The notes under the pieces were generated by a model, which saw only the letters and a list, made by a program, of their open reading frames with translations, made no database searches and was not told the DNA's origin. 44,849 bases of DNA, taken from the NCBI GenBank assembly GCA_947475715.1, contig CANJNY010000028.1, positions 1 through 44,849 on the forward strand. The letters run 5' to 3'. Below are positions 15-41,062 of this stretch, in pieces. Each line of letters opens with the position of its first letter. Positions within the stretch are counted from its first letter, which is position 1. The translations under genes and the position numbers were made by a program. The stretch is from Prolixibacteraceae bacterium (GTDB lineage: Bacteria > Bacteroidota > Bacteroidia > Bacteroidales > Prolixibacteraceae).

Positions 15-2396
15 ATGCATAGATTTTTAATCCTTTATTTTCTCTTAATCGCCCATATTGTACATAGCCAGAATTCATTGAATTTTTCATTGGATGGCTC
101 GTGGAAATTAACCTATGGATTAAACGATTCAAACTCGCCTAAAACTCCCGATGAACTTAAAACCAGAACTATGGAGGAGATACCTTCCATAGTGCCCGGA
201 AATGTAGAGCTTGATATGCTAGCCGCCGGAAAAATCAGTAATCCGGAGAGAGGAAATCACATCTACGACCTGCGCAAATTTGAAGCTTATCAATGGTGGT
301 ATACCAAAACCTTCCCGACCCCTGACTTTGACAAGGAGGAACGAATTGAACTTATTCTTGAAGGAGTCGATTGTTTCGGAACAATCTGGATCAACAATCA
401 ACTGATCGGAAAAACCGAGAATATGCTTATTGATCACCATTTTGACATCACCGATCTGTTAAAAAAAGGGAAAAACAATACCATATCCATTCGGATTAAT
501 CCGGCAGTTGCCGAAGGACAAAAGTATACCAACGGGGTAATTGGTACACGCATGGATTTTGGCGCTGAGGCGATAAATGTGCGAAAAGCTCCTCATATGT
601 ATGGCTGGGACATCATGCCGCGACTAATTAGTGCCGGACTTTGGAGAAGTGTTCATCTTTCAGTTATAAAACCCACACGGCTTAAACAGGTTTATTGGAT
701 GACAAATTCGGTAGATATTCCGAAAAAAAGGGCGCAACTGTTACTGGATTGGGATTTTGTATCGGGATTCCCCACTATCGATGGATTAACAATGGAAGTT
801 TCGTTGAAGCTTGGATCCAAAATTTGCTATGAAAATTCTTATCCGCTGTTTACAAACAGTTCACGGCAGCGCATCTCGCTGGAAAATGTCGAATTCTGGT
901 GGCCAAGGGGTTATGGTGAACCTGCTCTTTATGAGGCCACGGTCAGGATTGTTGATAAGCAGAAACGGGTTCTTGATGAGCAAAAGCAACAAATAGGTAT
1001 CCGGACTGCCGAATTGGTTCATTCGGAGATAACGACCAAAGAGAATCCCGGGGAGTTTGTATTTAAGATAAATGGGGAGAAGATATTTATCAGGGGGACA
1101 AACTGGGTACCATTGGATGCGCTTCACAGTCGGGATAAGGGGCTATTAAAGGATGTGTTTGGAATGATTACCGATCTGAATTGTAACCTGATCCGTTGCT
1201 GGGGTGGAAATGTTTATGAAGATCACGACTTTTTCGAATTATGCGATCAAAAAGGGATCTTAGTCTGGCAGGATTTTGCCATGGGGTGCACGACCTATCC
1301 GCAGGATAATAATTTTGCAGAGCGGATCACAAACGAGGTGATTAATGTCGTTCTAAAACTCAGGTCACACCCCTCATTGGTTTTATGGTCAGGTAATAAT
1401 GAAAATGATTCCTCGCTGGAATGGAGTTTGCGAAAACATCCCGATCCGTCAAGAGATCGGATCAGCAGGGAGATTTTGCCCCGAATCATCTGGGAATATG
1501 ACCCGATAAGGTCATACCTGCCAAGCTCGCCCTATTCGAGTGAAGAATACTACAAACAGGGGGGAAAAGGATCCTTGTTGCCGGAGGTTCACCTTTGGGG
1601 GCCACGCGGCTACTACAAAGACCCTTTTTACACCAGTTCGAATGCCCATTTTGTGAGCGAAATCGGATACCATGGATGTCCGAACAAAAGCAGCCTTGAA
1701 AAAATGTTTGAACCTGATTTTGTCTATCCCTGGACCAAAACAGGAGCGTGGAATGATCAGTGGCAAACCAAGGCAGTGCGTTCACATCCGGAGTCGAATT
1801 TTACTATACAGAGGAATGATTTAATGATTAAGCAGGTTAAGTCGATGTTTGGAGAATCGCCCAAAGACCTGGATCAGTTTATTTTTGCTTCACAGGTTGT
1901 ACAGGCAGAGGCGATGAAATTTTTTGTGGAGTTATGGCGAATGGATAAATTCCGAAAAACGGGAATTATCTGGTGGAATCTTCGCGATGGATGGCCCATT
2001 ATCTCCGACGCAGTAGTGGATTACTATAACAGCAAAAAACTTGCCTATTACTATATACGGCAAGTTCAGCATGATGCCTGCGTGATGATCGGCGATGCGG
2101 TGGAGGAGAAAAATCCAATTATTGCGGTTAACGATACAAGAGAAGAGAAATCAGGCAATGTCGTAGTCACGGATGCCGCGGGGGGAAAAATACTGTTCTC
2201 TTCTTCGTTTGTGATTCCGGCGAATGGGAAAGTCGAAATTGGACATATTCCGATCTCGGAGGGACAAGCCATGTGGTTAATTAATTATACAATTGGCAAT
2301 GAAAAATTAACAAACCACTACCTGAGCGGGAAGGCCCCATTCAAACTGGATGATTACCAAAAATGGTTTGAAAAATTAAATCTCAAAAGAGACTAA
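15..2396 (+). CDS. Secreted GH2 beta-mannosidase
   Basis: A 793-residue exported glycoside hydrolase of family 2, most like beta-mannosidases, which remove terminal beta-1,4-mannose such as the core mannose of N-glycans or ends of mannan. A signal peptide is visible (hydrophobic stretch, then HSQ near residue 19). A galactose-binding-like jelly roll follows (about 25-210), then an Ig-like sandwich, then the TIM barrel (about 340-650). The motif WSGNNEN at 458-464 is the family acid/base signature with E463 as proton donor, and SEIGYHG places E549 as likely nucleophile. WWNLRDGWP near residue 655 is also typical of GH2 mannosidases. Length is close to the family norm. Only 14 bases precede the start, so its operon context upstream is unseen. 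Family assignment is firm; the exact substrate is inferred. Confidence 0.92.
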   Translation: MHRFLILYFLLIAHIVHSQNSLNFSLDGSWKLTYGLNDSNSPKTPDELKTRTMEEIPSIVPGNVELDMLAAGKISNPERGNHIYDLRKFEAYQWWYTKTFPTPDFDKEERIELILEGVDCFGTIWINNQLIGKTENMLIDHHFDITDLLKKGKNNTISIRINPAVAEGQKYTNGVIGTRMDFGAEAINVRKAPHMYGWDIMPRLISAGLWRSVHLSVIKPTRLKQVYWMTNSVDIPKKRAQLLLDWDFVSGFPTIDGLTMEVSLKLGSKICYENSYPLFTNSSRQRISLENVEFWWPRGYGEPALYEATVRIVDKQKRVLDEQKQQIGIRTAELVHSEITTKENPGEFVFKINGEKIFIRGTNWVPLDALHSRDKGLLKDVFGMITDLNCNLIRCWGGNVYEDHDFFELCDQKGILVWQDFAMGCTTYPQDNNFAERITNEVINVVLKLRSHPSLVLWSGNNENDSSLEWSLRKHPDPSRDRISREILPRIIWEYDPIRSYLPSSPYSSEEYYKQGGKGSLLPEVHLWGPRGYYKDPFYTSSNAHFVSEIGYHGCPNKSSLEKMFEPDFVYPWTKTGAWNDQWQTKAVRSHPESNFTIQRNDLMIKQVKSMFGESPKDLDQFIFASQVVQAEAMKFFVELWRMDKFRKTGIIWWNLRDGWPIISDAVVDYYNSKKLAYYYIRQVQHDACVMIGDAVEEKNPIIAVNDTREEKSGNVVVTDAAGGKILFSSSFVIPANGKVEIGHIPISEGQAMWLINYTIGNEKLTNHYLSGKAPFKLDDYQKWFEKLNLKRD

Positions 2397-3605: not shown

Positions 3606-3847
3606 TCCCTGTTAAAAGCAGATCTCTTTTAAGTATTCACAAGCTATTTCCACAATAGTTTAAAAGGCTCTCCTATTATTTTTATTTTCGGCCAATTTAT
3701 AATTTCTGATCCCTTTCAGATAAGCTTATAACTTCGGATAAGAGATTACTCAATTAAATATCTGTTTACATCGGCGGGTGCACGAACTTTCCCGTTAAAT
3801 GTGTTCAAAAACCGGTAAAACGACGACAATTTTTTAATATTAACCTC

Positions 3848-3877
3848 CAATTAACTCTGAATTAATATTCAAATTAA
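3848..3877 (+). promoter_or_regulatory. Three phased AATTAA boxes upstream of susC
   Basis: Heptamers CAATTAA (3848-3854), GAATTAA (3859-3865) and AAATTAA (3871-3877) repeat at 11 and 12 bp, one helical turn each, and the last ends 11 bp before the putative -7 element. Direct heptamer repeats with 11-bp period next to the promoter are how SARP-type activators are known to bind. The PUL encodes a SARP-like regulator downstream, so these boxes are candidate operators. The spacer is AT-rich, so chance is possible. Confidence 0.4.
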
Positions 3878-3888
3878 TTGTCCAAATC

Positions 3889-3896
3889 TACATTTG
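3889..3896 (+). promoter_or_regulatory. Putative -7 element (TACATTTG) for susC
   Basis: TACATTTG matches the Bacteroidota -7 consensus TAnnTTTG. It lies about 93 bp before the susC ATG. No good TTTG/TTG -33 element sits 19-21 bp upstream, which would suit an activator-dependent promoter. Confidence 0.5.
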
Positions 3897-3989
3897 TACC
3901 GTTTTCGTGTGCTTAATTCAGAACATGAAAAGTTAGATTCTGCCCGCTAATCGCAGATTCACCGAATGTTAAATTAACTAATTAAATTT

Positions 3990-6900
3990 ATGAAAAAACC
4001 TGATTTATGCCATTCTCATCAGAGAATGAAGTTAGGGTACGTTGATCTATTCAGGAAAATATGGATTATTGTCATTGCCCTGATAACGCACCTGAATGTT
4101 ATAGGAGCGACTTTGCCAATCGCCGGAAATGGTTTGAATAAATCCTCATCAGAGTCAGCTGCTGCGATCACAAAAAATGTGGTTACTGGCAAGGTGGTCG
4201 ATAAAGACGGAGCACCGCTGCCTGGAGCGACTGTAATGATCCAGGGTTTGCCAGGCGGATCAATCACCGATACAGAAGGAAATTTTTCTGTCAAAGCTGC
4301 TTCTGGTGATAAGATTGTTGTATCCTTTATAGGGATGATCACACAAATAATCGATTTTGTAGGTCAAAGCGAATTAAAAATAACCCTTTTGGAGAAAGTT
4401 GATGAGCTCAAAGAGGTTTCTGTTGTAGCCTTCGGAAAACAAAAAAAGGAGTCTGTAATCGCCTCGATTTCCACCATCAGGCCTTCCGAATTAAAAATTC
4501 CATCCAGCAACCTGACCACCGCTTTAGCCGGGCGGATGCCGGGTTTAATTTCCTATCAGCGCAGTGGAGAACCGGGTCATGATAATGCCGAATTTTTCGT
4601 CCGAGGGGTAACCACCTTCGGATATAAGAAATCACCGCTAATTTTGATTGATGGAATTGAACTGGCCACATCGGATCTTGCCCGGATGCAACCCGATGAT
4701 ATTTCAAGCTTTTCAATCATGAAAGATGCTACGGCCACAGCATTGTATGGGGCACGTGGCGCCAATGGGGTAATCCTGGTAACGACGAAAGAGGGTAAGG
4801 AGGGGCCTGCAAAACTCAATATCAGGTACGAAAGGTCAATGTCATCACCAACTCGCATGCTTGACATTGCTGATCCGATTACCTATATGAAGATGCAGAA
4901 TGAAGCTATTTTAACCCGAAATCCGCTTGGTGGTCGTGCATATTCACTGGAAAAAATAAAAATGACCGAACAGCCGGGAAGGAATCAATCTGTCTATCCT
5001 GCTGTTAACTGGTTTGACAATATGTTCAATACTCAGGCTATGAACGACCGGCTTAATTTCAATTTAAGTGGAGGTGGTAAAATTGCACGCTACTATTTGG
5101 CCAGTACGATAAATACTGACAATGGAATTTTGAAGGTTGATAAACGAAATAACTTTAATAATAATGTAAAATATAACCGAATTTCGCTTCGGTCAAATGT
5201 GAATATTAATGTAACAAAAACCACTGAGGTTACAGTTCGGTTTAACGGCAATTTTGATGATTACAACGGACCGATCGATGGAGGCGAAGCATTATTCCGA
5301 AAAGCTCTACAAACAAACCCTGTTCTATATCCTCAATATTATGCACCTGATGTAGAAAATGCTTTTTCGAAACATATTCTTTTCGGCAATGCAGGCCAGG
5401 GAAATTATTTAAATCCTTACGCCGACATGGTTAAAGGATATAAAGATGAAAGCAAAAGTAATATGCTGGCTGTTATTGAATTAAAACAGGATTTAAGTTT
5501 TATCACCAAGGGGTTAACCTTACGTGGGTTGGGAAATACAACCAGGGAATCATTTTTTAATTTAAACAGGTCATATTCGCCATTCTACTACTCGCTTTCG
5601 AGTTACGATGCTGCGATTAATAAATATTCACTATTTGAATTAAACCCCAATAATGGGACCGAATACCTGCAGTATAATGAGGGTGACAAATCGATTGGGA
5701 CATCATTCTATTTTGAAGGTGCTTCGAATTACGAGCGGACATTCGGCAAAAAACACACTGTTACCGGCATGTTAGTCGGAATAATGCGTGAAATGAAATA
5801 TTCAAATGGAGGTAGTTTGCAAAAATCACTACCATACCGTAACCTTGGATTATCGGGCCGATTTACATATGCTTATGACAGCCGCTTTTTTACAGAGCTA
5901 AATTTTGGATACAATGGTTCGGAAAGGTTTGCTGCCAGGGAACGGTTTGGCTTATTCCCATCAATGGGAGCTGGCTGGATTTTATCGAACGAAAACTTCT
6001 GGAAACCATGGAATAAGGTTGTTAATAAACTAAAACTTAAGGTCACTCATGGTTTAGTAGGAAACGATGCTATTGGAAGTGAAAACGACCGCTTTTTTTA
6101 TATCTCGCAGGTTAATATGAATAATGGCGGAGTTGGGACCACTTTTGGACAGAATTACCTTCACAATATTCCGGGGATTAGTATAGACCGATACAGCAAC
6201 AATCAGATATCATGGGAAAAAGCGAGGATGACAAACCTGGGAGTCGAGATCGGGCTGTTCGGCAAGTTTGAAATTCAGGCCGATTACTTTTATGAATACC
6301 GTTCCAATATTCTGATGGATCGTTCACAAATACCGGCATCTATGGGATTACAAGTCCCTTTAAAGGCAAATATCGGAGCCGCAGCGTCACACGGATTTGA
6401 GACCTCTATCGATTTTAATCACAGCTTTGCCAACGGACTATGGGTAATGGGTCGGGCCAATATCACTTACGCTGCAAGTAAATTTAAAACTTACGAAGAA
6501 CTAAATTTTGTTGGTGCAGGATTACCCTGGAGATCCAGACTTGGGAACTCCATAAACCAACAATACGGATACATTGCCGAGCGACTATTTGTTGATGAAG
6601 CTGATATTGCAAACTCACCGCTTCAAACATTTGGCAGGTACATGGCCGGAGATATCAAATACAAAGATATTAGTGGTGACGGGCGTATCGACGAAAATGA
6701 TGTTGTCCCAATCGGTTACCCCTCAGATCCTGAAGTTATTTATGGCTTTGGCGCATCTGCAGGGTATAAAGGATTCGATTTCTCCTTTTTCTTTCAAGGA
6801 TCAGCCCGCTCCTCATTTTTCATCGACACCTATAAAACGGCTCCATTTATCGATATTAACGACGGATCACAAGGAGATGAGTGGAATAATAAGATCGGCA

Positions 6901-7253
6901 ATAATGCATTGCTAAATGCCTGGGCAAACGACCATTGGTCAGAGGACAACAGAAACTCTTATGCAGCATGGCCACGCTTGTCGAATCAGGTTATTGAAAA
7001 TAATATGCAGGCAAGTACCTGGTTTATCCGAAACGGTGCATTCCTGAGGCTTAAATCTTTTGAAGTTGGATACACCATCCCTAAGAAAAGTTTCCTGACA
7101 AAAGCGGGATTGTCTTCGATGCGGTTTTACATCAGTGGGACTAATCTGCTAACAATTAGCAAATTCAAACTATGGGATGTGGAGATGGGTGGAAATGGTT
7201 TAGGTTACCCTATTCAGAAAGTATTTAACCTAGGTGTAAACGTAAACTTTTAA
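3990..7253 (+). CDS. susC: SusC/RagA-family TonB-dependent outer-membrane transporter
   Basis: A 1087-residue outer-membrane importer for oligosaccharides. After an N-terminal signal segment (hydrophobic about 24-42) comes a carboxypeptidase-regulatory-like domain (about 63-143, starting VVTGKVVDKDG), then the plug (about 150-275) with the SusC signatures LILIDGIE and DATATALYGARGANGVILVTTK split around 215-265. The rest is the 22-strand barrel, ending in the aromatic C-terminus VNVNF. There is no STN domain between signal and CPD-like region, so classical anti-sigma/ECF signalling through this transporter is unlikely. susD follows after 9 bp. The presumed ligand is a mannose-rich glycan, inferred from the GH92 gene in the same cluster. 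The first in-frame ATG gives an atypically long charged N-terminus; M13 is an alternative start. Confidence 0.95.
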   Translation: MKKPDLCHSHQRMKLGYVDLFRKIWIIVIALITHLNVIGATLPIAGNGLNKSSSESAAAITKNVVTGKVVDKDGAPLPGATVMIQGLPGGSITDTEGNFSVKAASGDKIVVSFIGMITQIIDFVGQSELKITLLEKVDELKEVSVVAFGKQKKESVIASISTIRPSELKIPSSNLTTALAGRMPGLISYQRSGEPGHDNAEFFVRGVTTFGYKKSPLILIDGIELATSDLARMQPDDISSFSIMKDATATALYGARGANGVILVTTKEGKEGPAKLNIRYERSMSSPTRMLDIADPITYMKMQNEAILTRNPLGGRAYSLEKIKMTEQPGRNQSVYPAVNWFDNMFNTQAMNDRLNFNLSGGGKIARYYLASTINTDNGILKVDKRNNFNNNVKYNRISLRSNVNINVTKTTEVTVRFNGNFDDYNGPIDGGEALFRKALQTNPVLYPQYYAPDVENAFSKHILFGNAGQGNYLNPYADMVKGYKDESKSNMLAVIELKQDLSFITKGLTLRGLGNTTRESFFNLNRSYSPFYYSLSSYDAAINKYSLFELNPNNGTEYLQYNEGDKSIGTSFYFEGASNYERTFGKKHTVTGMLVGIMREMKYSNGGSLQKSLPYRNLGLSGRFTYAYDSRFFTELNFGYNGSERFAARERFGLFPSMGAGWILSNENFWKPWNKVVNKLKLKVTHGLVGNDAIGSENDRFFYISQVNMNNGGVGTTFGQNYLHNIPGISIDRYSNNQISWEKARMTNLGVEIGLFGKFEIQADYFYEYRSNILMDRSQIPASMGLQVPLKANIGAAASHGFETSIDFNHSFANGLWVMGRANITYAASKFKTYEELNFVGAGLPWRSRLGNSINQQYGYIAERLFVDEADIANSPLQTFGRYMAGDIKYKDISGDGRIDENDVVPIGYPSDPEVIYGFGASAGYKGFDFSFFFQGSARSSFFIDTYKTAPFIDINDGSQGDEWNNKIGNNALLNAWANDHWSEDNRNSYAAWPRLSNQVIENNMQASTWFIRNGAFLRLKSFEVGYTIPKKSFLTKAGLSSMRFYISGTNLLTISKFKLWDVEMGGNGLGYPIQKVFNLGVNVNF

Positions 7254-7262
7254 CAAAACGCT

Positions 7263-9191
7263 ATGAAAAGATATATTTTAATTCTGTGTGTATTCTCCCT
7301 TTTTAGTTGTAAATCTTATCTTGACATTGTACCCGATAATGTTGCAACGCTTGAAATCGCATTCCAAACAAGGGGTTCTGCCGAGCGGTTTTTAGCCACA
7401 ATATACAGCTATATACCGGAACAGGCGAGTCTTGAACAAAATTTTGGAATGGTGGCAGGGGATGAAATCTGGTATTATGGGGAAAAAGATTTCTATCTCA
7501 ATAACGAAACCAGCCTAAGATTGGCTAAAGGGATGCAGAATACGATCGACCCTTATTTGAATTTTTGGGAAGGGCGCCAAGGCGCTTACAATCTGTTTGT
7601 AAGCATAAGGGACTGCAATATTTTTCTTGAAAATCTCAAAGACATACCCGGTTTAAATACCGATGAGAAAAATCGATGGATTGCAGAGGCAAAGACCTTA
7701 AAAGCCTATTTCCATTTCTTATTACTTCAGATGTATGGCCCAATACCGATTGTTGATAAAAATATCCCCGTTGATGCACCATCAGCTGAAACCCATGTTG
7801 AACGAAAATCGGTCGATGAAGTAGTTAAGTACATAACCGCCTTATTGGATGAAGTCGTTAAAAGCGGAGCATTACCAGACAAAATCAGGTTTATTCAGAC
7901 CGAAAATGGACGAATTACATTACCGGCTGCGAAAGCAATTAAAGCAAAGATTTTAATGCTGGCTGCAAGTCCTTTATTTAATGGAAATTCAGACTATGCC
8001 GGATTTAATGACAAAAAAGGGCTGGCCCTGGTGAACCAGACTTTTGATCCCCTAAAATGGGTAGCTGCGCAAGATGCTTGTCTCGATGCCATTCAAACCG
8101 CTGAATCGGCAGGTCACGAATTATTCTCATTTACCAATTTATTACCTATTGGAACAATCAGCCAGGAGGTTCGCCAGGAGCTTACATTAAGGGCCACAAT
8201 TACTGACAGGTATAATAAAGAGATGATTTTTGGTGTTGGGCCCAACTCTGTCAATGCTTTACAGGCATGGTGCCAGCCACGCTGGACTGGCGACCACGCT
8301 GCAAATTTTGGTGCAACCCGAAAATCCCATGCCCCAACACTTAATGTGGTGGAAGATTTCTATTCGTCCAATGGCCTTCCAATAAACGAAGACAAAACCT
8401 GGAATTACAATGATCGGTTTAGTCTGGTGAAAGTTACAGATGCCTTAGCGTCAGATCATAGGTATTACCTTCAGAATAATTATACTACGGCAAAATTGCA
8501 TACTTACCGCGAGCCCCGTTTTTATGCCTATGTTGGATTTGATGGGGGTAAATGGTTTTCGATGGAAACATCCGACACGGAGAACATACCTTACCTGAAT
8601 GCTAAAGCAGGACAATTTTCAGGTAAGGCTGGAACTGAAATTTACTCAATTACCGGATATTTTACAAAAAAACTGGTTAATTATGAAAATGTCATTACCC
8701 GAAATACAACTACCATACAGGAGTATACTTTCCCGATTATTCGCCTGTCGGACTTATATCTGATGTATTCAGAGGCATTAAATGAAGTTAAGGGTGCTCC
8801 CGATGCCGAAGTTTACAAGTATATCCAGAAAGTAAGAGATAAAGCAGGACTCGACAAAGGGTCAGACCTGGTAAGCACCTGGAACCAATATTCGAATCAT
8901 CCTGAAAAACCCAAATCAAAAGAGGGGATGAGAACGATTATTCAAAAGGAGAGAATGATCGAACTTGCCTTCGAAGGACACCGGTATTGGGATTTACGCC
9001 GATGGAAATTAGCAGGTGATTACTTCAATAGACCAATCCGTGGGTGGAATATCTATGCAGGCGATACCAAAGATTTCTACCAGGTCAAAAATATCTTCTA
9101 CAGAGATTTCCTGATAAAGGATTATTTGTGGCCAATCAGCCAAAATGAGATGCTGCGCAATCCGAACCTCGTTCAGAGTCCTGGATGGTAA
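7263..9191 (+). CDS. susD: SusD/RagB-family glycan-binding lipoprotein
   Basis: A 642-residue surface lipoprotein that caps the SusC barrel and captures glycan. A lipoprotein signal ends FSLFSC with C16 as the lipidated residue. The N-terminal SusD-like region carries helical TPR-like segments (AEAKTLKAYFHFLLLQMYGPIPIVD about 140-165), and the C-terminal RagB/SusD signature ELAFEGHRYWDLRRWKLAGD lies near 560-580. Length is slightly above the common 500-600 residues. It is coupled to susC by a 9-bp gap. Glycan specificity cannot be read from the sequence. Confidence 0.95.
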   Translation: MKRYILILCVFSLFSCKSYLDIVPDNVATLEIAFQTRGSAERFLATIYSYIPEQASLEQNFGMVAGDEIWYYGEKDFYLNNETSLRLAKGMQNTIDPYLNFWEGRQGAYNLFVSIRDCNIFLENLKDIPGLNTDEKNRWIAEAKTLKAYFHFLLLQMYGPIPIVDKNIPVDAPSAETHVERKSVDEVVKYITALLDEVVKSGALPDKIRFIQTENGRITLPAAKAIKAKILMLAASPLFNGNSDYAGFNDKKGLALVNQTFDPLKWVAAQDACLDAIQTAESAGHELFSFTNLLPIGTISQEVRQELTLRATITDRYNKEMIFGVGPNSVNALQAWCQPRWTGDHAANFGATRKSHAPTLNVVEDFYSSNGLPINEDKTWNYNDRFSLVKVTDALASDHRYYLQNNYTTAKLHTYREPRFYAYVGFDGGKWFSMETSDTENIPYLNAKAGQFSGKAGTEIYSITGYFTKKLVNYENVITRNTTTIQEYTFPIIRLSDLYLMYSEALNEVKGAPDAEVYKYIQKVRDKAGLDKGSDLVSTWNQYSNHPEKPKSKEGMRTIIQKERMIELAFEGHRYWDLRRWKLAGDYFNRPIRGWNIYAGDTKDFYQVKNIFYRDFLIKDYLWPISQNEMLRNPNLVQSPGW

Positions 9192-9240
9192 CCCAATTTC
9201 AAGATTACATGATCTATTTTTATCAATTAAACTTAGCACA

Positions 9241-10449
9241 ATGAACTTTAAAATTATACTGACACTAATTTTAGTGATAGCCTTATTTGCAGGATGCAAG
9301 GAAGACACACACCATCCTTACGGATCAGATGGAGTATCCCCAGGCCTGGTGACGGTTAACCAGATTGTAAACAAATCGGGAGGTGCCGTAATCTATTTTA
9401 CAGCCCCTTCCGACAAGGATGTATTATATGTAAAAGCAGTCTTCTCCGATAGTAAAGGGAAGAAAAGAGAGGTAAAAGCTTCATCAGTAATAGATTCTCT
9501 TACTATCGAAGGTCTGGGAAAAGTTGGAGATTACCCGGTCGAACTTTTTGCTGTTGACCGCGCAGAAAATATCTCCAAAGGAACCAAAGCAGTGATATCC
9601 CCGTTATTACCAGCTGTTGAGCAAATAATTCCTTCAATTACCGGAGTTGTCGATTACGGGGGGATAAAAATCTCATACGCTAATCCTTTGCGTGCACAGG
9701 TTTCGATAAACATCCTAACCTACGACGAGGTACAATCCAAAATGGTTTACCGCGAATCCTTCTTTACCAGTCAGGAAGTAGGCACGTATAGTTTTCGTGG
9801 ATACAAAAGCGTTAAGACCAAATTCGGTGTCTATATTGAAGACCGGTGGGGAAATCAATCAGAGGTTGTAAACTTTGAATTTACCCCAATCCCCGATGAT
9901 TTTCTGGATAAAACATTGTTCTCGATATTCAAGTTAAACAATGATAAAAGTTTTGACGAATATGGATTCAACGCCCGGCAAATATGGGATAACCGATGGA
10001 GCGATCAGTGGAATTGCGGTCATACAAACTTTGAACCGCTACCCCATTACCTCACAATCGACTTAGGACAGTCGGCAAAACTTAGCAGATTTAAACTGTA
10101 TCAACGTGGTGGATATGAATTGTATAAACATGGAAATCCAAAACATTTCAAAATCTATGGCACACAGGATATCAACCAATTGCCACCTTATGATGCTTCG
10201 AATCCAACTGCAGGCTGGACCCTTTTAAAAGAATGTTTCTCATTTAAACCATCAGGCCTCCCCGTAGGACAGGTATCATCAGAAGATATAGAATTTCAGG
10301 ATAAAGGTGAAGACTTTGAATTTGACGTGAATGACCTTCATCAGGTTCGGTTTATACGGATTGAAAATATTGAAACCTGGGGTTCAATGGACGTAACGGT
10401 GATCGGAGAACTCTCCTTTTGGGGGGATATTATTAAAACACAATTATAG
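9241..10449 (+). CDS. Surface lipoprotein, DUF4959/DUF5000-like with F5/8-type-C-like domain
   Basis: A 402-residue PUL surface lipoprotein, probably a glycan-binding partner of SusCD. The start at 9241 is chosen over an in-frame upstream ATG at 9145, because the later start gives a clean lipoprotein signal (MNFKIILTLILVIALFAGC, C19) and avoids overlap with susD. KED straight after the cysteine resembles the acidic Bacteroidota surface-export signal. The N-terminal half has two Ig/Fn3-like segments as in DUF4959 and DUF5126 proteins. The last 150 residues, with HYLTIDLGQSAKLSRFKLYQ and a final GELSFWG, form a discoidin-like (F5/8 type C) beta sandwich. It lies 49 bp after susD. Confidence 0.82.
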   Translation: MNFKIILTLILVIALFAGCKEDTHHPYGSDGVSPGLVTVNQIVNKSGGAVIYFTAPSDKDVLYVKAVFSDSKGKKREVKASSVIDSLTIEGLGKVGDYPVELFAVDRAENISKGTKAVISPLLPAVEQIIPSITGVVDYGGIKISYANPLRAQVSINILTYDEVQSKMVYRESFFTSQEVGTYSFRGYKSVKTKFGVYIEDRWGNQSEVVNFEFTPIPDDFLDKTLFSIFKLNNDKSFDEYGFNARQIWDNRWSDQWNCGHTNFEPLPHYLTIDLGQSAKLSRFKLYQRGGYELYKHGNPKHFKIYGTQDINQLPPYDASNPTAGWTLLKECFSFKPSGLPVGQVSSEDIEFQDKGEDFEFDVNDLHQVRFIRIENIETWGSMDVTVIGELSFWGDIIKTQL

Positions 10450-10498: not shown

Positions 10499-12199
10499 AT
10501 GCAAACAAAAATTTTAAAAATACTCCCTATAACTATACTGCTCATCACCATAATTATGGGATGTAGCGATATGCAGTCAAATTACAAACAATATCTGAAC
10601 GGGGAAAAAATCTATGCCGGAAAACTCGATTCCCTTGAAGTTCTAAGTGGGTATAAACGGGTGAAAATTATAGGACTGACCAGGTACCTGGGGAATTCAA
10701 CGGAATGTACCGTTCAATGGGAAGATCAATCAAAAACCTTCACGATCGATAAGAACGGAAAAGATAAGTTCGAGATGATCATTGATAATCTGAAAGAGCG
10801 CACTTACGAATTCAAAGTCTCAACCAAAGACAATTATGGAAACCTGTCGGTATTACAAACTACACGGGGCAGGGCTGTTGGAGATATCTTCAAATCAACA
10901 CAGCAAACACGAAGGATGACAGGAGTGGTATTCGAAGGGGACAATACCGTGGCGAGCTGGGCCGATAAAAGTGAATCGGAATATGTGCTTTTCACGAACC
11001 TTTGGTACGATAACACGAGCAATGAGAAGACCAGCATGGTGGTAAAACAGGATGATTCAAAAACAACGCTGGTCAACTGGAAACCTCTGGGTCAGATAGA
11101 ACGAACCTCCGCGATCCAATCCGGCATACTAGGTTTTGATACAATCTATCTGGATAAGGTTGTCAGCCAACTTCCTGCACCGCCATACACATTCCTGGAT
11201 AAGAGCCTTTTCTCGTTTGCAGGGATGGCGAGCGACAACCCGGGAACATCTTATGGAGGTGACCCTGTTCATTACCTGTTTGATGGTGACGGAAGCTGGT
11301 CTGGTAACGATGCACTTGGGTATCACTCGGGTGAAAATTCAATCCCTCACCACTTCACGATCGATCTGGGAGTAAGTGCACAAATCCGTAAATGCCGGCT
11401 CGATTTAAGAGATCCGAATAATTATTCCGGTAACAACCCAACCAAAGTTGAACTTTGGGGAATCATGGACATCACCAATGCGGAGACCTCTTCAGAGGAT
11501 GCAGCGGAATTTGAAGCCAAAGGATGGAAACTGCTTTTTAGAGGTCCCGTTGATGGGGCAAACAGCCAAAGCGTTGAATTTGATGTTGCCACAGGACCCG
11601 ATGTCCGATACCTCAGATACCGCGTAACTGAAACAGTCGGTGGTTCAGGGGCACAATTAACAGAGATGACCTTCTGGGGACAGAATATCCAGCCACTGGA
11701 ACTACCGAAGAGTTTAATTTCTTTCGCAGCAATGGCAAGCGACAATCCGGGAACTTCGTATGGCGCCGACCCGGCAAGATACTTATTCGATGGAGATGGA
11801 AGCTGGTCTGGCAGCGATGAGCGTGGATATCACTCTGGCGAAAACTCAATACCACATCATTTTACATTAGACCTTGGAGTAACAGCAAAGATCCTTAAAT
11901 GCCGACTTGGACTAAGGGATCCGGGAAACTATTCGGGAAACAACCCAACAGAAGTTGCTCTTTGGGGAATTATGGACATCACCAATGCTGAAACTTCATC
12001 AGAGGATGGTGCAGAATTTGAGGCCAAGGGATGGAAATTACTCTACAAAGGTGCCGTAGATGGCGAGAATAATCAAACTGTAGAATTCGATGTAGCACCC
12101 GCAGCGGATGTTCACTACCTGAGGTATCAGGTGTTGAAAACCGTTGGCGGATCAGGAGCTCAACTTACTGAAATGACTTTCTTTGGTCAGTTCAAATAA
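10499..12199 (+). CDS. Surface lipoprotein, DUF4998 plus two tandem F5/8-type-C-like domains
   Basis: A 566-residue lipoprotein with lipobox ending MGC (C22) followed by SD. Residues about 25-225 resemble DUF4998, with WEDQSKTF and YEFKVSTKDNYGN. Two discoidin-like carbohydrate-binding modules follow, at about 233-397 and 402-566, and they are near copies of each other (PGTSYG, YLFDGDGSWSG, GYHSGENSIPHHFT, LWGIMDITNAETSSED and GGSGAQLTEMTF occur in both). It sits 49 bp after the previous lipoprotein gene and before the GH92 gene, so it is probably a surface glycan-binding protein of the PUL. The duplicated modules could raise avidity. The ligand is unknown. Confidence 0.85.
   Translation: MQTKILKILPITILLITIIMGCSDMQSNYKQYLNGEKIYAGKLDSLEVLSGYKRVKIIGLTRYLGNSTECTVQWEDQSKTFTIDKNGKDKFEMIIDNLKERTYEFKVSTKDNYGNLSVLQTTRGRAVGDIFKSTQQTRRMTGVVFEGDNTVASWADKSESEYVLFTNLWYDNTSNEKTSMVVKQDDSKTTLVNWKPLGQIERTSAIQSGILGFDTIYLDKVVSQLPAPPYTFLDKSLFSFAGMASDNPGTSYGGDPVHYLFDGDGSWSGNDALGYHSGENSIPHHFTIDLGVSAQIRKCRLDLRDPNNYSGNNPTKVELWGIMDITNAETSSEDAAEFEAKGWKLLFRGPVDGANSQSVEFDVATGPDVRYLRYRVTETVGGSGAQLTEMTFWGQNIQPLELPKSLISFAAMASDNPGTSYGADPARYLFDGDGSWSGSDERGYHSGENSIPHHFTLDLGVTAKILKCRLGLRDPGNYSGNNPTEVALWGIMDITNAETSSEDGAEFEAKGWKLLYKGAVDGENNQTVEFDVAPAADVHYLRYQVLKTVGGSGAQLTEMTFFGQFK
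11195..12196 (+). repeat. Intragenic tandem duplication of an F5/8C module
   Basis: Two units of about 495 bp each (11195-11689 and 11702-12196, offset 507 bp) encode the two C-terminal modules of the DUF4998 lipoprotein. They are strongly alike in protein and clearly alike in DNA, with many third-position changes. This suggests an in-place duplication kept under purifying selection rather than a very recent event. Confidence 0.85.
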
Positions 12200-12358: not shown

Positions 12359-14509
12359 ATGAATTCCCGAAAAATATCTATTGTAACATCATTTTTTTTT
12401 ATGCACATTAAAGTACTCACCATTACATTACTCCTGTTTAATTTGGGTCTGTTTGTTACCGCCCAGGACTTTGCAAAGTTAGTTGACCCGCAAATTGGAA
12501 GTCACGGAGATGGTTTACGCTGTGGATATTCGTTTATCGGTGCAACATATCCATTTGGAATGATTCAGTTTTCACCCGGATTCTTTACCCCACAACGTGG
12601 ATTTGCCGTAACTCAGCTAAATGGGGCAGGATGTGCTAATATGGGAAATTTTCCGGTACTTCCCTTAGCCGGAAAGTTAAGTTCCTCTCCGAATCAGATG
12701 GATGGTATTCCCGCATATAAAAAAGTAAATGAGGCCTGTGCCGGGTATCTCTCAGTAAAAATGGAAGATCAAACCCTTGCTGAGTTAACCGTTAATAAAA
12801 GGTCTGCAATAGCCCGATTCACCTATAATTCGGACATGGGTACTGTAATAATCGGATCAGGAATTAACGCTACCAGCGTCGATGACGCCAGAGTTGAAAT
12901 AACTTCCCCCTCAACTTGCGAAGGCTATAGTTCGGGAGGTGAATTTTGTGGTAACCAAACCCGCTACAAAATCTATTTTGCTGCAGAATTCAATCGAATG
13001 GCAAATTATACAGGAACCTGGATGGGTGATGCCCTGCTTGATTCCTTAAAACTGGCTTATGGAAAGAGCTCAGGAGCCTATTTCACTTTCAATACTAAAA
13101 AAAATAAGGAGGTCAATTACCGCATTGCCATTTCATTTGTTTCGGTTCAAAATGCCAAAGAGAACTTAAAGCAAGATAACACCTCCGAAAAGTTTGAAGA
13201 TTATAAACGCAATGCCATAAGCGTGTGGAATAAAACGCTTGCCAAAATAAGTGTAAAAAGTGATAATTTAGACCGGAAAGTTCAATTTTATACCCATCTC
13301 TACCATTGCCTGATCCATCCCAATATTGTCAATGATTCTAACGGAGAATATATCGGAGCAGATTTTGTCGTTCATAAAGCGGATAAAGGGCGTGATCAAT
13401 ACAGCTCTTTCAGCGAATGGGACACATACAGAACTCAATGCCAAATGGTTGCAATTCTTTTCCCAAAAGAGTCCAGTGATATGATGCAATCATTGGTTGA
13501 ATTTGCCTCCCAATCGGGAGGTTATGGAAGATGGATTCTGGCCAATATCGAAACCGGAATTATGCAGGGCGATCCTGCTCCTATCCTAATTTCGAATTCT
13601 TATGCCTTTGGGGCTACCGATTTCGACGTTAAGACAGCGTACAAATATATGAAACAAGGATCCATGCGTCCACTTCTTCGATCTCAAAATCAGGAAATCA
13701 GACCATTTTTGACTGAGTATATTAAGTACGGTATTGCCCCTGCCTCGATGCTTCTGGAATATACCTCATCCGATTATGCCATCGGACAATTTGCCAAACA
13801 AGCTCTAAATAATAATGAGGATGCGGCATTTTTCATCAATCGCTCCCAAAACTGGAAGAACCTGTACAACCCTAAATTAAACTGGCTTTGTTCAAAAGAG
13901 ACCAATGGAAAATGGAAAGATATTTCCGATGGCTGGAATGAAGCCTCCTACAAAAACTATTTTTGGATGGTTCCTTACAATCTGAAAACACTGATTGATA
14001 CCATAGGTGGAAAAATTATTGCAGAAAAAAGGCTCGATGACCTTTTTGTCAGACTCGATGCTAAATACGATAACGATTGGTTTGCTGCCGGAAATGAACC
14101 CGATTTCCAGGTACCATGGATCTATAACTGGACAGATTCACCAAATAAAACCTCAGCAGTAATACATCGGATTTTAAAGGATGTATACAACAGTTCCACA
14201 TCAGGCCTACCCGGGAATGATGATTTAGGGGCCATGGGAGCCTGGTATGTGTTTGCCTCAATTGGCTTATTCCCAATGACTCCGGGAATAGCCGGTTTCT
14301 CCGTCAACACCCCCCAGTTTGACGAAATAAAAATAGAACTGCCGCAGGGAGAATTGCTTATTTCAGGAGGATCACCTGAAAAATCTTTTATTCATTCTTT
14401 AAAACTAAATAACAAGTTATACAAAAATTCTACCTGGATTAATTGGAATGATATAAAAAGCGGGGGAAATTTAGAGTTCGAAGCCTCCGAAACAAGCATC
14501 AAAAAATAA
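12359..14509 (+). CDS. GH92 alpha-mannosidase, secreted
   Basis: A 716-residue family 92 exo-alpha-mannosidase. These calcium-dependent enzymes trim alpha-1,2/1,3/1,4/1,6-mannose from N-glycans by inversion. A signal peptide precedes VTAQ (about 27-36); M15 at 12401 is an equally plausible start and gives a more usual leader. The N-terminal beta-sandwich contains VDPQIGSHGDG and ATYPFGMIQFSPG. In the C-terminal helical domain, DGWNEASYKNYFWMVPYN places the likely catalytic acid at E528, and AGNEPDFQVPWIYNW precedes PGNDDLGAMGAWYVF with D621/D622, the family signature for base and metal site. Length is slightly short of the common 740-770. It is the only glycosidase inside the PUL block. Linkage preference is not predicted. 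Confidence 0.93.
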   Translation: MNSRKISIVTSFFFMHIKVLTITLLLFNLGLFVTAQDFAKLVDPQIGSHGDGLRCGYSFIGATYPFGMIQFSPGFFTPQRGFAVTQLNGAGCANMGNFPVLPLAGKLSSSPNQMDGIPAYKKVNEACAGYLSVKMEDQTLAELTVNKRSAIARFTYNSDMGTVIIGSGINATSVDDARVEITSPSTCEGYSSGGEFCGNQTRYKIYFAAEFNRMANYTGTWMGDALLDSLKLAYGKSSGAYFTFNTKKNKEVNYRIAISFVSVQNAKENLKQDNTSEKFEDYKRNAISVWNKTLAKISVKSDNLDRKVQFYTHLYHCLIHPNIVNDSNGEYIGADFVVHKADKGRDQYSSFSEWDTYRTQCQMVAILFPKESSDMMQSLVEFASQSGGYGRWILANIETGIMQGDPAPILISNSYAFGATDFDVKTAYKYMKQGSMRPLLRSQNQEIRPFLTEYIKYGIAPASMLLEYTSSDYAIGQFAKQALNNNEDAAFFINRSQNWKNLYNPKLNWLCSKETNGKWKDISDGWNEASYKNYFWMVPYNLKTLIDTIGGKIIAEKRLDDLFVRLDAKYDNDWFAAGNEPDFQVPWIYNWTDSPNKTSAVIHRILKDVYNSSTSGLPGNDDLGAMGAWYVFASIGLFPMTPGIAGFSVNTPQFDEIKIELPQGELLISGGSPEKSFIHSLKLNNKLYKNSTWINWNDIKSGGNLEFEASETSIKK

Positions 14510-14688: not shown

Positions 14689-17229
14689 ATGGTAAATCTA
14701 AATATTAAATTACTTCTTGTTTTTATATTTTGTTTTTCACTGAATATATTCTCACAAGGGCTACTATTCCAGTCAAATGATATCACAATTTCTCAAAGGA
14801 CAGCGTATAATGTCTTTGAGAAATCGACACCTGTTTTTAGAAATACCTTAGCCATATCATTTGATCTATCCATCTTGGATTTTAATGCATTCGGTTATAT
14901 TTGTTCTATCACTGAAAAAGGTACCGGCGACTCATTCTCGTTGATCTTAAGCGAGAAAGATAACTCAACTTACCTAAGTTTTAATCTTGACGGAAAACAG
15001 AATTTGCTTAAGATCCCCCTCAATAAAGCAGAGTTAGGCTACCGAAGGTGGCATAGAATCTCAATAGATCTACTTTCATTAACTGATTCCATTGAAATTA
15101 AGATGGATAATAAAGCCTGGCGTGCCTATTTTAAACGATCAAAACGAGATATTACGCCGGTGATCTCATTTGGAAAACACGAAAATATCATTGATGTGCC
15201 CAAAATGGCTATTAGAAAATTGCTCATTCAAGGGAGTCAACGAAATTACGAATTTGACTTCAACGAACACGAGGGATCGGAGGTTCATGAGCTCAATGGC
15301 GAGGTATTTGGAAAAGTGGAATATCCGGTATGGCTAATAAACGACTCTTTCCATTGGAAATTGCGCTATAAATATCGTTCATCAGCCGTTGCAGCAGTCA
15401 ATTTTGACGCAAAAAGCCAACGAATGATTATTTTAAATAAAGACTCCATTTTATTTTATTATTTCATATCAAACACCTCAAAAATAAATAGGTACAAGAA
15501 CTCGCTTAATGTACCTATTGCATTAGGAATGAGTTTTATGGACACATTAAGAAATCTGATTTATGTGTATGAAATTAATAATCTTCCGGTAAATACAACT
15601 ACAATTGCATCGTTGGATCTGACGAATTTATCATGGACAACCAAGAGCTCAACACAGCTGGAGGTACAAATCCATCACCACAATAGCTATTTTAATATTG
15701 ATAATCAGACATATACAATATTTGGAGGTTTTGGAAACCAGCGATTTTCAGGCTCTTTCCGAACCTACGACATCACCACCGACAAATGGAGTATACAATC
15801 CTATTCCGGCGATCGGATTTCTCCACGGTTCTTCTCCGGCTTAGCGAAGGTTGACAAGACGACCTCATTGATTTATGGCGGAATAGGCAATGAAACAGGT
15901 GACCAGAGTTTAGGAAGATCTTACAATGACGATTGCTTTCAAATAAACCACTCAACCCATTCAATTAAGAAACTTTGGAATGGTACTGCAAAAAAAGAGG
16001 GGATGGTTTCTGTTCGGAATATGGTTATTTCTGATGACAAAAGATCATTTTACACCCTTTGTTATCCGGAATACATCCCCGATACCTATCTTAAATTATA
16101 TCAATTTTCGATTGAGAATGGCAATTATGAGGTACTTGCAGATTCGATCCCCCTATTTTCAGAGAAAATAGAAACCAATGCCAATCTGTATCTCAATCCA
16201 ATTACCAATGAATTATATTGCACCACGCAGGAATTTTTCTCTGATGGATCTCAGGTAATAAAAATTTACTCTTTATCAGAACCACCTGTTTCGAAAAAAA
16301 TATTTACAGGTTCTCAATTCAATTTAGGGAAATCAAGGGTAAACTATTTTTCTATTCTTATTGCCATTCTTGGTTGTTTAGCCTTGTTTTTATTTTATCG
16401 CAGAAGAATAACTGTTAAAAAAATTCAGATAAACAATCAACGCATAAAAATAGAGCAAAACGATAATCCTGAGCATATTGCCAAAGAGAAAAGGGTAAAT
16501 GCGATTTACCTTTTTGGTGATTTTTGTGCGTTTGATCATTCAGGAAAAGATATTACACAATTATTCAGTACCCGGATCAAACAATTATTTGTATTTATTT
16601 TATTAAACAAAAAAAACGGAGTCACCTCGTCTCAGATTTATTCTGCAATATGGCCTCACAAGAGTATAGAACAGGCAAAGAACTCGAAAGGGGTAACATT
16701 GAATCAGTTACGAAATATCTTAACTAAAATGGAGGGTATTTCGTTAATAACCGAAAAAGGCTCACTTTACTTTGAGATCGATAATCGGTTTTATTGCGAC
16801 TACCTCTGTTACCAGGATCTTCTAAAAGACTTCAGCCACAATAGCGAAAATAATGATGCCTTACCCCAAATAATAAATATCATCTCAAAAGGTCCCTTTA
16901 TAAAAGCGATAAACTTCGAATATTTTGATCCCTTTAAAACCAATTTTGAAGATGAAATTTTAATTGCTTTCCTGCCATTGATTGATAAACATTTTCTTGC
17001 ATGTTCCTACTCAGTGGTCATTCAACTTTCGTATATCCTCAATATGATTGATGCACAAAATGAGCAAATATTAAGATATGAATTAGTTTCTTATATGAAA
17101 CTAAATAAGAGTGAACTGGCAGAAAAACGGTTTAATACGTTTAGAATTATATATAAACGTGAAAACAAAAGTGATTTTCCCTATACATTTAAAGAGGTTT
17201 CAAATCCTAAACTTATTATTATAAAATAG
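14689..17229 (+). CDS. Membrane-spanning SARP-like regulator with LamG/kelch-like sensor
   Basis: An 846-residue protein with an unusual architecture. A signal segment (1-23) leads to an extracytoplasmic part: a concanavalin/LamG-like sandwich (about 30-225) and a beta-propeller with kelch-like blades (about 230-530), for example IFGGFGNQRFSGSFRTYD and LIYGGIGNE. One transmembrane helix follows (about 554-573, then RRR). In the cytoplasm a winged-helix domain starts near 603 (AIYLFGDFCAFDHSGKDIT, then TSSQIYSAIWP) and resembles OmpR/SARP DNA-binding domains. The remaining 150 residues (CDYLCYQDLLK and ELAEKRFNTFRIIYKRE) resemble a bacterial transcriptional activator (BTAD) TPR domain. I read it as a one-component sensor-regulator of the adjacent PUL, replacing a hybrid two-component system or ECF/anti-sigma pair. 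It is co-oriented with the PUL, 179 bp after GH92. The domain reading is by eye. Confidence 0.75.
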   Translation: MVNLNIKLLLVFIFCFSLNIFSQGLLFQSNDITISQRTAYNVFEKSTPVFRNTLAISFDLSILDFNAFGYICSITEKGTGDSFSLILSEKDNSTYLSFNLDGKQNLLKIPLNKAELGYRRWHRISIDLLSLTDSIEIKMDNKAWRAYFKRSKRDITPVISFGKHENIIDVPKMAIRKLLIQGSQRNYEFDFNEHEGSEVHELNGEVFGKVEYPVWLINDSFHWKLRYKYRSSAVAAVNFDAKSQRMIILNKDSILFYYFISNTSKINRYKNSLNVPIALGMSFMDTLRNLIYVYEINNLPVNTTTIASLDLTNLSWTTKSSTQLEVQIHHHNSYFNIDNQTYTIFGGFGNQRFSGSFRTYDITTDKWSIQSYSGDRISPRFFSGLAKVDKTTSLIYGGIGNETGDQSLGRSYNDDCFQINHSTHSIKKLWNGTAKKEGMVSVRNMVISDDKRSFYTLCYPEYIPDTYLKLYQFSIENGNYEVLADSIPLFSEKIETNANLYLNPITNELYCTTQEFFSDGSQVIKIYSLSEPPVSKKIFTGSQFNLGKSRVNYFSILIAILGCLALFLFYRRRITVKKIQINNQRIKIEQNDNPEHIAKEKRVNAIYLFGDFCAFDHSGKDITQLFSTRIKQLFVFILLNKKNGVTSSQIYSAIWPHKSIEQAKNSKGVTLNQLRNILTKMEGISLITEKGSLYFEIDNRFYCDYLCYQDLLKDFSHNSENNDALPQIINIISKGPFIKAINFEYFDPFKTNFEDEILIAFLPLIDKHFLACSYSVVIQLSYILNMIDAQNEQILRYELVSYMKLNKSELAEKRFNTFRIIYKRENKSDFPYTFKEVSNPKLIIIK

Positions 17230-27005: not shown

Positions 27006-27577
27006 TTAATTGGTATCCAACATCTTTTTAATATCTTTTACTATCGAGGTACTTGTTCTGCCTGAAACCGGAATTTTAATTCCACTTTTCAGTATGATAT
27101 AATTTTCTACTCCCCTGACAAATTTTTGAATATAATGGATGTTGATTAAATAGGATCTATGAGCACGATAAAACTGATTTGGAGGAAGTAATTCCTGAAG
27201 TTGTTTTAACGATTTATTGATTAAATAGTTTCTTTTAATTCAACGATATTAATTGGTTTTAAAAGACAATCGGAAGCTGATTTTTTAAAAGCATCTAAAG
27301 TGTATGGTTCGTGGGCTGTCATGAAAATAATTTTGAATTCTGGTACTTTGAAGTATTCATAGATATTCAAACCACTTTTACCCGATATTTTAATGTCCAG
27401 AAAAACAAATTCTGGTTTCACCCGTTTAATCATGGCAACTGCATCAGGAAGATTATTGGCAGTTCCAACCACTTTTAACGGTATCGAAGAGAAATTCCCC
27501 AATAATTCAGTCATTAATTCTATTGATTGCTCTTCATCATCTACGATGGCTATTGTATAGGGATCGATATGTTTCAT
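27006..27577 (-). pseudogene. LytTR response regulator with internal deletion and frameshift
   Basis: The minus-strand ORF at 27221-27577 encodes 118 residues of a receiver domain: IAIVDDEEQSIELM with the acidic pair, VFLDIKISGKSG with the phospho-acceptor Asp, FMTAHEPY with Thr/Ala and LLKPINIVELK with the conserved Lys-Pro. It then stops. Directly downstream in another frame (about 27006-27232) lies only the second half of a LytTR DNA-binding domain: KSLKQLQELLPPNQFYRAHR, SYLINIHYIQKF and IPVSGR, to a stop at 27006. The linker and first LytTR strands (about 70-90 residues) are absent, so an internal deletion with frame change has split the gene. The receiver could still be made as a lone domain. 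Confidence 0.8.
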
Positions 27578-37744: not shown

Positions 37745-37821
37745 CCTTGAGATTCAGCATCGCAGACAGGTTATTGTGAGTTTAAAGAAACAAGTATTTA
37801 GGATTAATTGATTTGGAAAAA

Positions 37822-38943: not shown

Positions 38944-38979
38944 ATAAGCTTGTTGAATGATGTTTTGATATTGTTAGTT

Positions 38980-39309
38980 TTAATAATTTTTCCCTTTTGA
39001 TTCTAGTAGTGAATAGGCCTCTTCCCAACTTGGTATTGTATCAGATTCATAACCATAGGTCCTACCGGTAGCGATTGATTTAAACGCTTTCATTGCTTTA
39101 AGATGAACACCGTTTCTCATAAAGGCTAACATCAGTTCGCGGTTTTCCCAGGCCGAGAGTGTACAATTATAGCCGTTGATTTTTTTGACTGCACTATAGA
39201 TATTTCCTTTTGCCGATTTTGCTTCACCAAAAGAGGGGATTGCGAGAGTCCAAAATCGTATAAATCCCCACAACCCTTTTGGCTTTAATCCTGTAATTGA
39301 GATATGCAT
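38980..39309 (-). CDS. Small ABM/DUF3291-like protein
   Basis: A 109-residue cytoplasmic protein. MHISITGLKPKGLWGFIRFWTLA with FGEAKSAKGNIYSAVKKINGY and TLSAWENRELMLAFMRNG is the pattern of dimeric alpha-beta-barrel proteins (antibiotic-biosynthesis-monooxygenase-like, spheroidene-monooxygenase-like, DUF3291). Function is unknown. It is the last gene of the minus-strand run, 44 bp after the fucosidase, and probably shares its transcript. Confidence 0.65.
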   Translation of the reverse strand: MHISITGLKPKGLWGFIRFWTLAIPSFGEAKSAKGNIYSAVKKINGYNCTLSAWENRELMLAFMRNGVHLKAMKAFKSIATGRTYGYESDTIPSWEEAYSLLESKGKNY

Positions 39310-39353
39310 AATGTTATCATTAGATAATTACACACAAAGAAAATAATTTTTAA

Positions 39354-41060: not shown

Positions 41061-41062
41061 TT

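Follow-up and report, generated by a model that had tools for sequence, protein, structure and literature searches.

How is a polysaccharide utilization locus (PUL) controlled when none of the regulators usual for such loci is found beside it? In Bacteroidota, PUL control is usually described as SusR-like, as exerted by hybrid two-component systems (HTCS), or as dependent on extracytoplasmic function (ECF) sigma/anti-sigma pairs (PMC3878776, PMC10316084). The question is raised by a contig of 44,849 nucleotides from a Prolixibacteraceae bacterium (CANJNY010000028.1, assembly GCA_947475715.1), referred to here in its entirety as the window. Pfam identified SusC, SusD, DUF proteins, and a GH92 enzyme in the neighbourhood that a model's original prediction had described as SusCD-GH92, and an open reading frame (ORF) of 846 residues is present at 14689-17229 as claimed there; susC, susD, both genes in SusE/F-like position, the GH92 gene, and this regulator gene all lie on one strand. 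The same prediction had assigned a SusC without STN domain, and Pfam indeed gave no STN match. It had further regarded the 846-residue protein as the only regulator candidate in the absence of an ECF gene, which holds for the 26 ORFs scanned on the contig (42456-44690 and small ORFs lay outside the scan): no ECF sigma factor, anti-sigma factor, or HTCS was found among them, nor did they show the arrangement of an ECF sigma/FecR pair with an STN-bearing SusC. We conclude that the protein is very probably a transmembrane one-component activator with a module like that of Streptomyces antibiotic regulatory proteins (SARPs), which acts on a probable alpha-mannoside PUL via TTAAY repeats upstream of susC. 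Computation established the ORF, the predicted topology, the SARP fold, and a repeat element of near-SARP spacing that is conserved and co-occurs with the protein family.

The cytoplasmic part was modelled alone with AlphaFold2 (residues 604-846; 28 rows) and reached a predicted local distance difference test score (pLDDT) of 91.4 and a predicted template modelling score (pTM) of 0.81. A Foldseek search of this model against the PDB returned six chains below an E-value of 1e-3, all of them AfsR (8k60_J at 8.9e-8, 8k60_I, and 8hvr_I) or EmbR (2fez at 2.4e-7, 2ff4_A, and 2ff4_B), with 13-15 % identity; the first match after these chains followed at E 0.022. The predicted model shows the order that defines a SARP fold, namely a winged helix and then a BTA helical domain. 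On the level of sequence profiles, the regulator C-terminus matched Pfam Trans_reg_C with E 0.079 (13.5 bits, cut-off 26.2) and the SARP model BagI_FevR with 10.8 bits (cut-off 500), while at E ≤0.5 BTAD was found in 7 of 33 family members (best 0.0028), Trans_reg_C in 5 of 33, and BagI_FevR in 6 of 33 (best 5.6e-6). When the C-terminal profile was run against PDB sequences, all matches were at chance level (best E 0.59). The C-terminus is thus SARP-like by its predicted fold, and it is not filed as a formal SARP because the sequence profiles point the same way only weakly.

Hydropathy placed an N-terminal segment at residue 8 and a strong transmembrane segment at about 551-569, which is followed by the basic stretch RRRITVKK, so that the C-terminus is predicted to lie inside; a weak third candidate (1.59, from residue 769) falls within the BTAD-like helices. 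The full-length AlphaFold2 model (24 rows; mean pLDDT 77.0, pTM 0.46) has strands over residues 24-529, which are followed by a helix at 552-589, the winged helix (605-697), and further helices up to 837. By prediction, a transmembrane helix and a DNA-binding domain are hence united in one protein, as in a transmembrane transcription regulator, and the Pfam/NCBIfam profile scan gave no match to kinase, receiver, or AraC domains. In the sensor region, Pfam returned only sub-threshold kelch matches (PF24681 with E 1.7e-10, at 41 bits under the 50-bit cut-off) and no carbohydrate-binding family. With the whole model, Foldseek ranked eukaryotic kelch propellers on top, many of them solved with protein or peptide partners, and the best 50 of 1616 matches were mainly propellers, with no SARP among these 50. 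Summed up, the winged helix and BTAD-like domain after residue 600, the kelch propeller, and the membrane helix (originally placed at about 554-573, here at about 552-575 by hydropathy and AlphaFold2) were all recovered, and of the proposed LamG-like sandwich the sandwich itself was retained. Its identity as LamG was rejected on sequence: the region is a beta-sandwich by AlphaFold2 and has no Pfam match, Laminin_G_2 appeared in one homologue only (E 0.18), and hhalign of the sandwich against the LamG region of relatives gave probabilities of 1.9 and 5.8 %.

According to the rule described for SARPs, direct repeats follow one another at a distance of 11 or 22 bp, and 8 bp separate the 3' one from the -10 element (PMC10936776); TAnnTTTG has been deduced as the -7 consensus for the primary sigma factor of the phylum (PMC7366714). 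Upstream of susC, positions 3840-3896 read TTAACCTCCAA TTAACTCTGAA TTAATATTCAAA TTAATTG, then 8 nt, then TACATTTG, so the region suspected earlier as the target (3840-3900) does hold a repeat element of the expected kind, with the 8-bp spacing of the SARP rule and steps of 11, 11, and 12 bp. A pattern of three repeats plus box had its single match in the 5.77-Mb own genome at precisely this site (reversed control 0) and did not occur in any of 300 dinucleotide shuffles of the window, as compared to 8 of 300 when the box was dropped. The four-repeat pattern with no mismatch was found in 1 of 61 genomes (the own genome and 60 relatives), and there at the window site only. In a broader scan for at least three TTAAY in 11- or 12-bp steps from -14 before an exact box, which covered the window and 66 loci (1.09 Mb, some stretches present twice), all nine matches lay upstream of SusC, and three shuffles per stretch yielded none. 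When triple heptamers with a strict 11-bp step were sought in front of the box, none of the present sites came up, since the steps in the kelch groups are 12 bp or mixed.

The same register recurs in relatives. A match was obtained in 21 of the 61 genomes, and the own genome has a single paralogue, located close to where contig C26 begins; at E ≤1e-3, the C-terminal profile found 34 of 395 genomes of the phylum, and the family is therefore uncommon. A contig scan with one peptide pattern gave 27 loci, every one of which encodes a transmembrane segment before the SARP-like part by hydropathy (27/27); L064-L068 share the window's sensor (29-43 % identity) and 22 are similar in the C-terminal part only. 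The orthologue test asked for TAAY at no fewer than three of the offsets -14, -26, -37, and -48 together with a box of at most one mismatch. It returned one match for the window (4/4 offsets) and one each for L065, L066, L067, and L068 (3/4), that is, the same register in four of five orthologue loci at an expectation of 0.0 per locus (20 Markov draws each), and in addition a 4/4-offset match with one box mismatch at L116 (Dysgonomonas, G055). Among 625 register sets, only (14,26,37,48), a register derived from the window itself, matched four loci, while three sets matched three, five matched two, 21 matched one, and 595 matched none (control on the window, L064, L065, L066, and L068, with L067 outside). 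In Dysgonomonas, the site of L066 stands before the gene of a GH125 alpha-mannosidase, which is divergent from the regulator, and that of L116 before a GH92 gene, in keeping with the GH92 of the window. At L068, the site is flanked by the regulator on one side and, on the other, by a divergent gene run holding SusC.

A paralogue group with the order SusC-SusD-SSF-GH130-regulator at L033 (GH130 checked there only) carries a related element, three copies of TTAATCG in 12-bp steps. The pattern TTAAYCG-N5-TTAAYCG-N5-TTAAYCG with at most one mismatch occurs once each in 10 of 61 genomes (seven exact, three with one mismatch), and all ten sites lie upstream of SusC. They fall in 10 of the 11 genomes with that protein group (250-269-bit matches, a group defined by score after the fact) as compared to 0 of 50 others, including genomes with other family branches; the eleventh, G017, is 78 % complete. 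Fisher tests, uncorrected for relatedness, gave p 1.2e-10 overall and 4e-4 within the genus (8/9 vs 0/9). G010 has all three elements on one contig, with about 40 kb separating the regulator from SusC and about 43 kb separating it from the site. This SusC (L113, G010:C79, 5635-12763) has an intact TTAATCG triplet and, judged from ORF starts only, is followed by an apparent response regulator and kinase pair in place of SSF. In the own genome, the paralogue site lies on contig C146 before a SusC-SusD-SSF run that reaches the contig end, and the paralogue gene opens C26, as expected for one operon broken in the assembly.

With regard to the genomic neighbourhood, SusC is present in the fetched stretch at 15 of 20 other kelch-type loci (L032-L045, L063, and L064-L068; L031 is on the same contig as L066, and the matches G024:C197 and G008:C457 stand outside this count), the SusC of L063 being a 202-aa piece at a contig end. 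The loci without it are L036, L037, L038, L042, and L064, of which L036, L037, and L064 are on or near contig ends. The 22 loci with C-terminal similarity only, all of which except L072 align with L089 at 39-63 % identity, are provisionally called LamG-type after a Pfam scan of eight C-terminal-only proteins (including L046 and L047, taken as L088 and L089), seven of which have Laminin_G_3 (exception L048). Most of them have no susCD as neighbours: a complete or partial SusC was found at 2 of 22 (L084 and L089), and likewise at 4 of 17 C-terminal-only loci of the series L046-L062. The association of homologues with PULs expected in the original prediction is hence borne out for the kelch-type and mostly fails for the C-terminal-only proteins.

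Phased repeats are also found in the LamG branch, before the gene that follows the regulator. Promoters of 18 of the 22 loci were compared (L070 and L078 were outside the comparison, and L090, with a 28-bp gap, and L083, with no box, were removed), and TAA stands at -14, -25, -36, -47, -58, and -69 in 17, 17, 16, 16, 16, and 11 of them, with TAA at -70 in six further promoters. Altogether, 93 of 116 TAA share one 11-bp phase; other periods between 7 and 16 gave at most 26, and 1000 mononucleotide shuffles at most 14. These 18 promoters are related (median pairwise identity 0.5) and do not represent independent events, and L088 has no array.

The LamG-type relatives (aligned regions of L069-L089) precede a recurring gene run, the promoter of which carries five to six TAA repeats at 11 bp. 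At L080 (10717-16418), the only locus scanned in this respect, the run opens with a gene for a NapC/NirT-type cytochrome fused to an FGE-sulfatase domain, and genes for two GFO/IDH/MocA proteins and then a GT2 follow.

Taken beyond the window, these data suggest that an as yet unrecognised class of membrane-anchored SARP-fold regulators is likely to exist in Bacteroidota, with one transmembrane helix, swappable kelch or LamG sensors, and three to six phased TAAYC repeats in arrays that end 8 bp before a -7 box. Such regulators would drive glycan loci as well as other clusters, acting as activators that remain tethered to the membrane while they occupy neighbouring positions along the promoter DNA.

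Several observations weigh against the interpretation proposed for the window protein. No Pfam BTAD or Trans_reg_C and no NCBIfam SARP match above cut-off was obtained in the regulator, the matches being weak. The window operator has one 12-bp step and the paralogue group has 12/12, not 11 or 22, and the registers were read from the data after some promoters had been seen, so that the later tests of uniqueness and co-occurrence were not fully blind. With one mismatch allowed, the four-repeat pattern has one match each in five other genomes at a reversed control of 1, and these matches include the Dysgonomonas GH92 site and not the GH125 site; for the paralogue pattern, the reversed control gave matches in 3 of 61 genomes. 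Moreover, the closest orthologue locus (L064, Carboxylicivirga, 43 %) has neither a site nor a SusC in its truncated stretch, and there is no site in the stretch of L112 (Dysgonomonas), which ends 190 bp upstream of the 609-aa gene of a SusC run. At L067 (a metagenome-assembled genome of Tannerella), the site precedes a sulfatase and the SusC group carries a FecR gene (L067:1511-4921), so that two control modes may meet there. Finally, with 41 SusC matches above the family cut-off in the own genome, some proximity to SusC is expected by chance.

It is very improbable that the repeats belong to another regulator or to a general promoter architecture and that the membrane protein is nearby by chance. 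This would account for repeats that abut the core promoter, and AT-rich DNA does yield chance repeats, as in the eight shuffles scored without the box; it is opposed by the co-occurrence with the protein group (10/11 vs 0/50), by the single own-genome site despite the large number of SusC matches, and by the fact that every family branch examined has its own variant of a TAAYC-like repeat. With repeats that border on the core promoter at 8 bp from the box, the site would also suit repression, in which the bound protein blocks RNA polymerase until the ligand releases it. We consider this unlikely to a similar extent, as 8 bp upstream of -10 is the geometry described for SARP activators and AfsR was solved as an activator together with RNA polymerase (PMC10936776).

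The nature of the signal leaves more room for debate. The same role in DNA binding could go with a periplasmic part that reads a protein partner, for example one linked to SusC/SusD or to the state of the cell envelope, instead of directly bound glycan. Kelch propellers often bind proteins, many of the eukaryotic propellers at the top of the 1616 structural matches were solved with protein or peptide partners, the sensor region lacks a carbohydrate-binding family match in Pfam, and the LamG label is unsupported. This alternative nevertheless appears rather unlikely in view of the mannoside enzymes GH92, GH125, and GH130 that recur at the loci and predicted targets, and of the known membrane PUL regulators, which are described as sensing oligosaccharides (PMC3878776, PMC10316084).

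According to the preferred reading, that of a glycan-sensing activator, the protein would be a single-pass inner-membrane one-component transcription activator, the periplasmic sandwich and kelch propeller of which sense a product of the locus. This ligand is most likely an alpha-mannoside, a guess that is made because GH92, GH125, and GH130 genes are present in the loci. The transmembrane helix would pass the signal to the cytoplasmic SARP-like module, an OmpR-type winged helix with BTAD-like helices, and several such modules may then occupy the four TTAAY repeats next to one another and help RNA polymerase to use the -7 box, as AfsR does. In this way, the genes from susC and susD through to GH92 would be turned on and, probably, also the regulator's own gene. 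The features on which this reading draws are compiled in Table 1 together with the predicted targets.

Table 1. Regulator, predicted operator, and predicted target genes in the window (empty cells: no entry).
Feature	Position	Strand	Basis
Regulator gene, 846 aa	14689..17229	+	ATG start; ORF listing, Pfam, hydropathy, AlphaFold2, Foldseek
Regulator parts (residues): signal segment; beta-sandwich ~24-211; kelch-type propeller ~224-529			
Regulator parts (residues), continued: transmembrane helix ~552-575; SARP-like winged helix 605-697; BTAD-like helices 704-837			
Cytoplasmic SARP-like part, residues 604-846	16498..17226	+	AlphaFold2 pLDDT 91.4; Foldseek AfsR, EmbR
Predicted operator: four TTAAY repeats, starts 3840, 3851, 3862, 3874; steps 11, 11, 12 bp	3840..3880	+	
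Predicted -7 promoter box TACATTTG (consensus TAnnTTTG), 8 bp past last repeat	3889..3896	+	sequence
susC-like TonB-linked transporter, predicted first target	3990..7253	+	TIGR04056 4.6e-288
susD-like gene, predicted target	7263..9191	+	PF07980 2.2e-55
DUF4959/DUF5126/DUF5000 protein, SusE/F-like position	9145..10449	+	Pfam
DUF4998/DUF5000/F5-F8C protein, SusE/F-like position	10499..12199	+	Pfam
GH92 alpha-mannosidase family enzyme	12359..14509	+	PF07971 1.8e-126

As listed, the DUF4959 ORF begins within susD and shares its first 47 bp with it (9145-9191); its true start may be downstream. Elsewhere in the window, 27221-27577 encodes a receiver domain of the response-regulator type (118 aa, PF00072) that stands alone, without an output domain, and a second glycan cluster (35717-42046) comprises a GH20, an HGSNAT-type acetyltransferase, an alpha-L-fucosidase, and a phosphoesterase; together with GH92 and GH2, this cluster would fit N-glycan breakdown.

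In relation to known systems, the regulator resembles AfsR of Streptomyces and EmbR of Mycobacterium in its cytoplasmic winged helix and BTA fold, and the SARPs more generally in direct repeats of which the last lies 8 bp from the -10/-7 element; for AfsR, side-by-side binding and recruitment of RNA polymerase have been described (PMC10936776). The differences are that the module is located C-terminal to a transmembrane helix and a periplasmic sensor, in Bacteroidota, and at glycan loci, that three to six repeats with 11- or 12-bp steps are present, and that the similarity amounts to 13-15 % identity and stays under the Pfam cut-offs. SusR likewise sits in the membrane, senses in the periplasm, and binds DNA with its cytoplasmic C-terminus (PMC3878776), and a membrane one-component PUL regulator is thus not new as such; its predicted motifs, in contrast, are two repeats 67 or 77 bp apart (PMC3878776). 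Kinship with SusR was considered and rejected, as hmmsearch against two proteins that are SusR by position (beside GH97-type/SusC/SusD) gave no match and hhalign against one of them a probability of 0.5 %; these proteins have DUF6377, which the regulator lacks. Both (L107:2444-4045 and L109:2453-4090) adjoin starch-type PULs and combine DUF6377, for which Pfam gives no function, with weak tetratricopeptide repeat matches, one strong transmembrane segment, and a weak C-terminal helix-turn-helix match.

HTCS also control PULs through a periplasmic sugar sensor within one polypeptide, and BT3172 has been tied to mannosides (PMC3878776); the present regulator differs from them in the lack of a kinase, receiver, or AraC domain match. 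Like ToxR and CadC, it would tether a winged helix to the inner membrane. In ToxR and CadC, the winged helix is N-terminal and cytoplasmic, before the transmembrane helix, whereas in the AlphaFold2 model of the regulator it is C-terminal, after the transmembrane helix, and followed by a BTAD-like domain. The terms SARP and BTAD do not occur in the main text of a census of transmembrane regulators (PMC10269533), and a literature search limited to openly licensed papers yielded no description of a SARP-type PUL regulator.

If the preferred reading holds, the regulator adds a fourth membrane route of PUL control, and it does so with a DNA-binding module that is best known from the regulation of antibiotics in antibiotic-producing soil bacteria. 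The LamG branch suggests that the same device controls clusters other than PULs. How a membrane-tethered protein would fill four to six side-by-side sites is a question that follows directly from these arrays, and, as concrete operators are predicted in several genomes, both the regulon and the ligand are testable at once.

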